IMG/VR virus record: IMGVR_UViG_3300036466_000103
Coordinates: 64,001-96,568 of that record
Source of the DNA: a virus
DNA: 32,568 nt
Direction: 5' to 3' (one strand)
Of this stretch, positions 6,871 to 31,959 are shown one piece after another; position 1 is the first letter of the stretch, and each line of letters opens with the position of its first letter. The position numbers and the translations under genes are program-made. The notes below the pieces were generated by a model. That model had not been told where the DNA came from. It saw nothing but the letters and a program-made list of their open reading frames with translations, and made no database searches.

Positions 6871-6892
6871 AAACCCCGCTAATGCGGGGCTA
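6871..6892 (-). terminator. Terminator at end of leftward operon
   Basis: Read leftward, GCCCCGC, loop ATTA, GCGGGGTTTC. The stem (6874-6879 / 6884-6889) overlaps the last codons of the 398-aa gene, so it ends the long leftward transcript. Confidence 0.7.
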
Positions 6893-8075
6893 GTAAACAA
6901 CTTCTACTATCCCAGAGGGCAACCACAACCATGTCAGTGGTGTCTATTCCAAAATGCCTTAGAGTTTGTAGGAATGTATAGTTTTTCTGGGATTTCACTG
7001 TGTTAGCTCGCTTAGGGTCAATACCGAAACTTATCCATAAGTCTTTGACTGACATCTTAACTCCATTGAATTCAACAGAGCGAACCCTCTCAGGCACCAA
7101 CTGCACAGCCTCCTCGAAAGGTATGCCCAAACGACTCTGCGCCCCTTCTACCCTGCTTTTAGATGTCCCATAGTGCTTGCACCAATCCTCTTTATACTTT
7201 GACACACCATCAATCGTATAAAGAGTCCTCCCATCATGCTTTGGATGCTCACGTATCAACTTGATCAGCTTGCTTAGGTTGTTATTACACTTATCTATAT
7301 AAAGATTCAGGAGGGCAGAGGATACATGAAGGTAGTCCGAAATCTCATCCTTACTTGTAAACTGATACCAAACCCCATCACTTGTGGTCATGACATAGGC
7401 TGGACTTTGAGGCTTTTCATTATACACAAGACAAGCATATAAAGAAGAGTCCTTCCAGCCACTGCTCGGGCTTAACCTAGTAACTACAGTTTTATAGTCT
7501 ACATCATACTCCTTGCAAAGAAGCTTCAGAGACAATTCATTACCGTCCGAATCAACCACCACCTTACCCTGCAAAGAAATCTCGCGGAGTCTTAGTATTT
7601 CATCAATATCAGTGATACCCTCACGAATTCGCGCATAAGCAAAAGAATAGGCAGCAATATCCTCCCTGAAAAACTCTTTGATGCGCACGTAGAAGCCTTT
7701 GTATGTGGCATACAGATTGCCTGTCCCTGTGAACAAACGGTTGACGCTCTGATGCAGGAATAAGCAAGTGTCAGGACCATACACCTTATTGCCATCAAAC
7801 ATGAAATCTTTATCTAGGGCTTTACCTTCCCAATCTTGTTCAACCATCCAGCCCCTGAAGGCCATAAAGCTCCACCACCTCTCATCTACAGTGCAACCAA
7901 TATACGTTTTGTTATTCCTTTGGTATGCCGGAGAGTAGCATCTAGCGAACATGTTCTTCCACACCTTGTAGAAAGGACACCTCCACTCAACTCCATTAGC
8001 ATCCCGTATGCTGACTTGGTAATCAGCATCATTGATCCCAACACCGTAGATAGTTCTATTCTTTCTCTTTTTCAC
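6879..8075 (-). CDS. Homing-endonuclease-like or DNA-binding protein (398 aa)
   Basis: GTG start at 8075 with AGGAGGGG just upstream. Residues about 30-130 carry the layout of a widespread phage nuclease-like domain: W-x-x-M-F-x-R-C-Y, Y-x-G-C-T-V-x-x-R-W, a GKALDKDF segment, then KVYGPDTC and VNRLF. This resembles HNH-associated proteins, but I do not see a full HNH triad. The rest holds three spaced copies of a helix-turn-helix-like unit of the form K-x-x-C/W-K-x-Y/F-G/D-x-x-x-x-x-V (near LLCKEYDVDYKTVVTRL, DWCKHYGTSKSRVEGAQSRL and DLWISFGIDPKRANTV), as in modular DNA-binding tails of homing enzymes. Last gene of the leftward operon. Selfish endonuclease or regulator; undecided. Confidence 0.75.
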   Translation of the reverse strand: MKKRKNRTIYGVGINDADYQVSIRDANGVEWRCPFYKVWKNMFARCYSPAYQRNNKTYIGCTVDERWWSFMAFRGWMVEQDWEGKALDKDFMFDGNKVYGPDTCLFLHQSVNRLFTGTGNLYATYKGFYVRIKEFFREDIAAYSFAYARIREGITDIDEILRLREISLQGKVVVDSDGNELSLKLLCKEYDVDYKTVVTRLSPSSGWKDSSLYACLVYNEKPQSPAYVMTTSDGVWYQFTSKDEISDYLHVSSALLNLYIDKCNNNLSKLIKLIREHPKHDGRTLYTIDGVSKYKEDWCKHYGTSKSRVEGAQSRLGIPFEEAVQLVPERVRSVEFNGVKMSVKDLWISFGIDPKRANTVKSQKNYTFLQTLRHFGIDTTDMVVVALWDSRSCLLAPH

Positions 8076-26280: not shown

Positions 26281-26356
26281 CTGCCCTTAGTGTTCAACGG
26301 TAGCACACCTCGTTTGGGACGAGGAAGAGAAAGTTCGAAACTTTCAGGGCTGACCA
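26281..26356 (+). tRNA. tRNA-Pro(TGG)
   Basis: A 76-nt cloverleaf with CCA. Acceptor CTGCCCT/AGGGCTG with one T2-T71 mismatch; D stem GTGT/GCAC; anticodon stem CCTCG/CGAGG with loop TTTGGGA (anticodon 26315-26317, G37); T stem GAAAG/CTTTC with loop TTCGAAA. C1-G72 with A73 fits bacterial proline tRNA. It lies in the middle of the structured noncoding locus, directly after the AACCTCT/AGAGGTT helix. Confidence 0.92.
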
Positions 26357-30177: not shown

Positions 30178-31959
30178 ATGACGGAAGTTAATATGGTGCG
30201 CCCACAATCCCCCTTTCAAGAAAAGTATTTAAAGTCTAATGCTAAGATACTTGTAGTCGGTGGTGCCGCAGGTAGCAGTAAGAGCTACGTTGGTCTTATG
30301 CGGCACCTAAGATGGGCGCATGATCCGAATTACAATGGTTACTGTATTCGAAAGAACAGTACAACATTGATGAAAGCAGGCGGGTTGTTCCAAGAAGCAA
30401 TCGCCCTGTATCAAAAAGTTTATCCTGATTTGAAGATCAAATGGAAAGACCAGAAGTTGGTATTTCCTAGTGGAGCATCTGTATCCTTTTCTCACTATGA
30501 AAATGATGCAGCCGGACAACAGTATCAAGGTCTTCAGTTATCAAATGTCTTTTATGACGAAGCAACACACGCAGCAGAAGAACATATCTGGTGGCTTGTG
30601 TCACGTCTTCGTACAGCAGCAAAACTAAACCCTTCCATCTGGTTATCTTGCAACCCTGACCCTGACAGCTTCTTGTTCGACTGGGTTAAATGGTGGTTGT
30701 ATCCAGAAGGTCATCCACAACACGGTATCCCAGATCCAGAGCGTAACGGAATCACACGATTCTGTCTTCGTATTGCTGGTGATATGGTTTGGGCTGATAG
30801 CCCCGAAGAGTTGATTGAGAAACACGGTAAAAAGGATTTACCAGCAGATCATGAAGATCAAGTTAAGCCAATTGCATTTCAAGTTTTGCTTGGGAATTTA
30901 ACTGATAATCCCACGTTGATGAAGATGCAGCCAGAATACAAGTCCAACCTTGAGGCTTTGCCTGATGTTGAGATGCGTAGACTGCTTCTTGGTGACTGGA
31001 CTGCAAGGGAGGAGGGTAGTACATACTTCCAACGATCCTGGTGTGGTGAGGAAGCCTTAGAGGATCCTCCAGCATCTGAGATTGTTCGTACGGTTAGAGC
31101 GTATGACTTCGCAGGGACATTGAAGTCCTCAGCTAACCCAAGTCCTGACTATACAGCATGTGCAAAGATTAGCAAGCTGAAGTCTGGAGACTATTTCATA
31201 CATGAGATTGTTCGTACACGAATACTGTACGGTGACTGGGAGAGATTCATCCTAGACAACGCACAACGTGATGGGAAGAACTGTGAGATTGTTATCCCGC
31301 TTGATCCTGGTGCATCAGCTAAAGTGGCTACAGCACTCCTCACAAGATCAATTAGTGAGAGAGGTTATAGAGTGAGGACAATGAAGGCTAGCCAATCTAA
31401 GCTTGATCGCTTCCGTCCATTCTCATCTTTGGCTATGAATGGTCACGTTAAGTTCCTTAAAGGATGTTCTACAGACCTTGAGAATAATGTGTACGGGAAC
31501 AACAGTTTCATGTACAGAGAACTTGAAGCCTTCAATGGTAAGAGGCGTGGTGGTGAAGCAGGACATGACGATAAAAACCGGTCGTCAATAAACTTACTTA
31601 ATTCGGTGGAACCCTAAATCATTCGGTTTAGACAATACCGAGCTAGGGCTTATAGATTGTAAGCCTGAGTGTAACGACTATCGAAAGCACATCTTATGAT
31701 GGAAGCAAGTAGAGTACACCCAAGTGGGTGGAAACAGTGAGGACGACCTACATGGGTTGTTAAGATATAGTCTGCTCTGCATGGTGACATGCAGCAGTTC
31801 ATAAGAGAACGGGCAATGTCTAACGAGCATTGTTGAACATAAAGGATCTGTGACTGCATTAGTGACGCTACAGCAATTCTAGCACAAAGAACAATAGTTC
31901 CAAACATGGCAAAGGCATTAGGTAGTATTAACCTAGTAAACAAATCTCCATTTAACTAA
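30178..31959 (+). CDS. terL: Terminase large subunit, split by a group I intron (502 aa spliced)
   Basis: Exon 1 is 30178-31572 (465 codons) and exon 2 is 31846-31959 (37 codons plus stop). The ATPase domain has Walker A GGAAGSSKS (28-36), Walker B VFYDEAT (124-130) and the coupling motif WLSCNPD (155-161). The nuclease domain starts at RAYDFAGT with Asp310, continues at PLDPGAS with Asp376 and ends with GHDD (462-465). Splicing gives GHDD-ICDCISDATAIL, restoring the third conserved acidic cluster of the RNase-H-like nuclease. The protein powers DNA packaging and cuts the genome concatemer. Unspliced translation would end 14 codons into the intron, lacking this motif. Confidence 0.93.
31573..31845 (+). 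ncRNA. Group I self-splicing intron without ORF (273 nt)
   Basis: Exon 1 ends UGACGAU and the intron guide GUCGUCA (31581-31587) pairs with all seven bases, with the U-G wobble at the splice site (P1). P4 TCGGT/ACCGA (31603/31637), P5 CTAAATC/GGTTTAG (31614/31625), P6 GGCTTA/TAAGCC (31647/31660), P7 GACTAT (31676-31681) with ATAGTC (31767-31772) inside the hallmark AAGATATAGTC. P9 is CTGC-GCATG-GTGA-CATGC-GCAG (31772-31797). The last base is G (31845). No homing endonuclease gene is present. Confidence 0.92.

Follow-up and report, generated by a model that had tools for sequence, protein, structure and literature searches.

TerL is encoded by a hallmark gene of tailed phages, and the terL frame of the phage analysed here ends early, which raises the question of what interrupts the gene and how the interruption came to lie there. 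The gene was found in a 32,568-nucleotide stretch of DNA (hereafter the window; positions 64,001 to 96,568 of IMG/VR record IMGVR_UViG_3300036466_000103), the final third of a record that measures 96,568 bases and whose ends overlap by 127 identical bases, indicating a circular or terminally redundant genome. Its assignment as TerL was based on phrog and Pfam profiles and a structure match, with both the terminase ATPase domain and the RNase H-like nuclease domain recognized, and at exon 1 it shares 82.6% identity with its counterpart in Pseudomonas phage phiPMW. The window also carries a tRNA gene (26283-26350; Rfam, 36.1 bits).

In the ORF listing, the unspliced terL frame (30178-31617) encodes 479 aa before its stop. 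A reading made from the letters alone (the sequence-only reading) had proposed that a 273-nt group I intron restores this frame, and that splicing regenerates GHDD-ICDCISDA. In-silico removal of 31573-31845 gave ...GHDD-ICDCISDATAILAQRTIVPNMAKALGSINLVNKSPFN*, a TerL of 502 aa with a C-terminus in agreement with those encoded by intron-minus loci of relatives. An end at 31844 instead of G31845 would yield GAT-CTG-TGA, that is, a stop; the position of P1, G31845 and the exact restoration of the frame thus bear out the proposal that both splice sites can be placed to the base. The Rfam group I model, which the same reading had named as a check, matched at 31499-31794 with 54.0 bits against a gathering score of 50 (E 3.3e-11; scan of the window); the first part of this alignment is misplaced into the exon, while P4-P9 and AAGATATAGTC fit. 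Our covariance model R1 gave 152.7 bits, a score to be read with the window sequence itself being part of the model. Window 31573-31845 is a group I intron. No plus-strand ORF of at least 60 aa lies inside it, in line with the proposed lack of an internal endonuclease gene. From these sequences we infer that the terL transcript is spliced in this phage. We consider it very probable that the element is a functional ORF-less intron that restores TerL, a copy without endonuclease of a phage lineage specialized on GACGAT. The features are collected in Table 1.

Table 1. Coordinates of the split terL gene and of the predicted intron elements in the window
Feature	Position	Strand	Basis
terL exon 1, 465 codons, ending in GHDD	30178-31572	+	phrog_979 8.1e-163, Pfam Terminase_6N/6C
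Group I intron, 273 nt, without ORF	31573-31845	+	Rfam RF00028 54.0 bits; frame restoration; R1 152.7 bits (window sequence part of R1)
terL exon 2, ICDCISDA...PFN and stop	31846-31959	+	Homologous to C-termini of intron-minus relatives
P1 exon strand UGACGAU	31566-31572	+	P1 pairing; seventh pair covaries in relatives
P1 guide strand GUCGUCA	31581-31587	+	P1 pairing
P3 5' strand, partner 31736-31741	31593-31598	+	Two-sided changes in 5/6 pairs
P4 (31602-31608/31636-31642) around P5 (31614-31620/31625-31631)	31602-31642	+	Alignment/pair count
P6 (31643-31644/31668-31669) with apical hairpin	31643-31669	+	Alignment/pair count
P7 5' strand GACUA, partner 31768-31772	31676-31680	+	Invariant in 14 rows
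P7.2 hairpin	31717-31730	+	Two-sided changes in 5/5 pairs
P3 3' strand	31736-31741	+	Alignment/pair count
P8 hairpin	31743-31760	+	Window sequence only
P7 3' strand UAGUC in AAGAUAUAGUC	31768-31772	+	Rfam match; fold
P9 hairpin	31778-31793	+	Rfam match; two-sided changes in 4/6 pairs
Terminal (omega) G, 3' splice site	31845	+	Sequence; frame restoration

The secondary structure of the intron was then assessed. Both the P7 hallmark with the terminal G and the 7-bp P1 with a U.G wobble at the splice site (UGACGAU/GUCGUCA) were present in the window sequence as had been proposed. The fold has a z-score of -3.9, and none of 100 shuffled sequences was equally stable. Fourteen relatives were aligned without P1, and pairs were counted for P3, P4, P5, P6, P7, P7.2 and P9: the P3-P9 helices, including the P3/P7 pseudoknot, consisted of 94.0% standard pairs with two-sided changes in 26 of the 38 pairs (0/500 shuffles), compared with 31-43% paired for slid controls on the same alignment. 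P3 covaries among these relatives. P7 was paired in all 14 rows and never varied, so it counts neither for nor against the fold. Introns of subgroup IA have P7.1/P7.2 after the 5' strand of P7 and before the 3' strand of P3, and P7.2 covaries in the same alignment. The seventh pair of P1, which was left free in the survey described below, was a standard pair in all 41 dereplicated TerL introns (A-U 24, U-A 16, G-C 1), against 23 of 41 pattern positions negative with the covariance model; the non-TerL introns include two mismatches at this pair, L048 and L103. The guide-side base follows the exon, being A in introns after HDD (CAT) and U in introns after KDD (AAA); the window intron has U-A.

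In GHDD, the second Asp codon immediately precedes the intron, confirming the predicted insertion in the nuclease motif of TerL. In T4 gp17, the codons of HDD (H540 D541 D542) read CATGACGAT, the same nine bases that precede the window intron, and H-D-D does not vary among 12 intron-minus relatives (H461 D462 D463). In the predicted nuclease domain of a relative, L009 (mean pLDDT 63 for the whole model and mostly 80-90 for residues 290-450), a helix starts at HDD, and this model matched the terminase nuclease structures of P22 (4dkw; Z 14.2, 3.3 A over 170 residues), RB49 gp17 (Z 12.9, 3.5 A over 164 residues) and SPP1 (Z 12.3, 3.5 A over 168 residues). PDB sequence searches with TerL found no terminase, and hhalign of T4 gp17 gave no alignment over the motif. 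The equation of the window Asp with T4 D542, which we take to be catalytic, therefore draws on the shared HDD string and on the domain-level fold match.

To place the intron among its relatives, IMG/VR was searched with the pattern GACGAT-(4-30)-GTCGTC-N-W-TAAAC, and introns were called among the pattern positions with R1, a model built without P1. Introns were called at 58 of the 99 positions; by the 5' exon, 43 follow the nuclease motif, nine follow a DD of T7-like TerLs that is Walker B in our own reading, and six lie elsewhere (L048, L052, L071, L076, L103 and L124). Among these six, the exons of L076 and L103 matched no terminase family in the profile scan, and the other four are too short to name. 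Two hexamer controls of the same composition, scored from tables with the same 12-base rule as the survey, gave introns at 0/28 and 4/54 positions (together 4/82), with three model matches about 35 nt past the pattern in the second control (L409, L426 and L440) left out of the 4/54. The mismatched guide GACGAT/GTCATC gave 0/82. Among the matches listed, GATGAT/GTCATC gave 2/92 and GATGAT/GTCGTC 0/29, and these include one clear case of a guide that tracks a synonymous substitution in the first Asp codon (L162, GATGAT/GTCATC) and a second at a contig edge (L190). The fixed codons of the lineage are partly a matter of construction, since the search itself demanded GACGAT. Almost all of the 1243 records from an alignment-based search with a close intron matched only part of the core, and this search was rejected as evidence on the site; plasmids gave two weak matches.

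When exons of at least 60 aa were compared with TerL profiles at 1e-5 (n=55, with L162 from the GATGAT scan), 47 matched phrog_38 and 41 matched phrog_979. Dereplication left 34 nuclease-site TerLs (with L162) and seven Walker-B-site TerLs at 90% identity, and eight and four, respectively, at 50%. An in-frame 3' junction could be located in 32 of the 43 introns at the nuclease site, of which 14 are short (228-297 nt) and 18 long (755-1416 nt), indicating that ORF-less forms are common. Judging from these counts, the window intron is one member of a widespread lineage specialized on the TerL Asp-Asp codons GACGAT. Within the titles and abstract beginnings covered by our literature search, with most subscription journals outside it, such a lineage was not described. 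On three contigs (L095, L048 and L099), at least four group I introns lie within a few kilobases. Other terL group I introns were observed at a Walker-A-like GGAAG segment (L015, L017, L022-L025, L053, L096 and L126), making three catalytic motifs of TerL targets of introns. The portal gene of the present phage (window 31976 onward), next after terL across the contig ends, has a 309-nt group I intron of its own (L001:308-616 = C1:308-616; junction ...SEAIGV/AQDNNAF), which is absent in phiPMW; portal introns occur near the same residues in L045, L060, L054, L086 and KIL1. A third group I intron (L003, about 1500-1790; C1:35934-36168) follows ...TGSFHK in a DNA-polymerase-like gene named by eye.

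Group I or group-I-like introns are known in terL of LL-H, ICP1, SIOphi, phiAGATE and phD2B, as in the window. Splicing is reported for the KASIA terL introns by RT-PCR (PMC8541194), for ICP1 terL by RNA-seq and RT-PCR (PMC10448857), and during infection in Bastillevirinae, where 5/52 have terL introns, including SIOphi and phiAGATE (PMC11878797); the phD2B intron was inferred from split ORFs (PMC4246154), and that of LL-H goes back to Mikkonen and Alatossava 1995 (via PMC9610469). A review (PMC3984707), PMC12768974 and PMC1299323 were the other print sources. The LL-H intron, unlike that of the window, interrupts the first half of terL, and ICP1 has a short N-terminal exon with a T5orf172 gene alongside. 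Intron 2 of Shewanella phage KASIA (MZ568826) has a motif-equivalent boundary, SPD/STM, but is about 1306 nt long, holds an HNH gene and has the P1 exon UCCAGAU; its R1 score, only about 25 bits, makes it a remote precedent. The second of the two terL introns of Pseudomonas phage vB_PsyM_KIL1 (Flaumdravirus, KU130126) is at the boundary of the window intron (KDD/QVDA) and shares the hexamer GACGAT and a related core; it differs in its length of 770 nt, its HNH gene and its guide GUUGUC with a G.U pair, and the KIL1 TerL is only about 38-40% identical to that of the window. The gp19/terL introns of T7-like phages (Klebsiella ZH4, RCIP0039 and RCIP0053, Acinetobacter LLY and Edwardsiella WCT72P1) share the GACGAT end and the GUCGUC guide but lie at the Walker-B-like DD, after IPDD or LADD (L037-L040, L356, L359 and L362), instead of the nuclease motif. 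Phage terL introns are thus already published and spliced, and the lineage with its two-site distribution is the part that deserves follow-up.

The two DD sites are distinct in the protein: in phrog_38, column 691 is where the exons of the window, L045 and L066 end, and column 410 is where all seven tested Walker-B-site exons do. An independent colonization of both sites, with no intron moving between them, is quite possible in our estimate, although it falls somewhat short of an even chance; it concerns the history of the lineage and leaves the intron call as it is. Since pairing with the exon obliges every intron after GACGAT to have a GUCGUC-like guide, the shared guide was rejected as proof of movement. 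Moreover, the AU test did not reject a single clade of the eight Walker-B-site introns (p 0.28). However, the window core is nearest to Walker-B-site introns (L073 69.4%, L101 68.9%), a small lead over the nuclease-site L089 (67.8%), and it groups with them on trees with SH-aLRT 98 (six such rows) and bootstrap/SH-aLRT of 88/90 (five) but also 33/96 (five). The first of these trees used the best 82 of 101 rows, with L065:395, L087:2324 and L190:6313 dropped beforehand, and the two later ones were made without near-duplicates and some odd rows. The site label requires 3-4 changes on the trees, and the endonucleases are homologous across both sites (RCIP0053 against KIL1, 38%, E 2.4e-29). These observations suggest that an intron hopped from one DD site to the other. 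The fuller history, in which one lineage hopped between the Walker-B-like DD of T7-like phages and the nuclease DD of myovirus-type TerLs, and the window copy came from a T7-like phage via relaxed HNH cleavage or reverse splicing, is put forward only tentatively. A P6 U-A pair is common to the window, L040, L101 and L140, a mere hint because the pattern reading failed on many rows.

We then considered how the intron might move. The HNH gene inside KIL1 intron 2 belongs to phrog_2081 (3.1e-57), and six IMG/VR contigs (L030-L035) repeat the KIL1 arrangement with endonucleases 64-66% identical. By motif, most long introns hold an HNH-like ORF, at both DD sites. An endonuclease inside the intron, a trait of homing, is thus found in many same-site relatives, whereas the window copy lacks it. 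Four phrog_2081/953-type HNH genes occur in the genome of the window (window 6879-8075, minus strand; C1:33354, 45096 and 48874), and these are possible candidates for partners in trans. None of them is next to terL, where collaborative homing would place a free-standing endonuclease that cuts the intron site. The expectation that mobility either needs a partner in trans or has been lost therefore fits both the KIL1 intron and the present genome. Two nuclease-site introns, L087 (766 nt) and L141 (242 nt), are identical in their first 60 bases, which points to an intron that has gained or lost its endonuclease segment.

Intron-minus alleles, whose comparison the sequence-only reading had also proposed, were found in 19 of the 20 closest IMG/VR terL loci; the intron is present only in the identical phage L008, a second contig with the same 273-base gap between identical exons. 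The terL genes of phiPMW, SYP and M1 are likewise intron-minus at this site, and empty alleles of the same site in relatives are a further trait of homing. At intron-minus loci (24 readable of 26 tried), the motif codons were GACGAT in 5, GATGAC in 7, GATGAT in 5, GACGAC in 3 and Glu-containing in 4. This patchy distribution fits a mobile element. Together with the endonucleases inside the introns of many relatives, it makes it unlikely that the intron is kept mainly as a regulator responding to GTP level or timing late packaging, a role for which PMC11878797 offers the proposal that phage introns are 'molecular-on-switches' and the late splicing of phiAGATE terL. Still less probable is a dead element, with a 479-aa TerL ending ...GHDDKNRSSINLLNSVEP in use or the phage defective. 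The unspliced frame stays open for only 14 codons into the intron before the stop, so that a truncated protein is possible; however, it would lose the C-terminal helix after the motif (residues 463-476 of the L009 model), each helix is intact, as are the two splice signals, exon 2 is still clean coding sequence, and L008 has the same gap. An intein, or a ribosomal bypass or frameshift element, is extremely improbable, as the insert has stops in all three frames instead of being open in frame with the host protein and shows a group I fold with covariation, and we found no support for such a reading.

Group I splicing is a two-step, GTP-initiated chemistry. For the functional intron that we favour, the guide GUCGUCA would pair with the last seven exon bases, UGACGAU, in the pre-mRNA; by the standard chemistry, GTP would attack after U31572 and the freed exon would then attack after G31845, and the joined mRNA would encode the complete 502-aa TerL. 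Full members of the lineage carry a phrog_2081-type HNH endonuclease, and this enzyme most likely cleaves the site in alleles without the intron. The endonuclease of the window copy was presumably lost or never present; any movement of this copy would go through recombination assisted in trans.

Introns at the catalytic codons of TerL make the protein look truncated in annotations. T4 gene 17 (L364), which carries the same CATGACGAT, is a ready intron-minus target in a standard laboratory phage. If true, a lineage that follows catalytic Asp-Asp codons at two non-homologous places would offer a test bed, in a protein gene, for the ways in which group I introns arrive at new sites.
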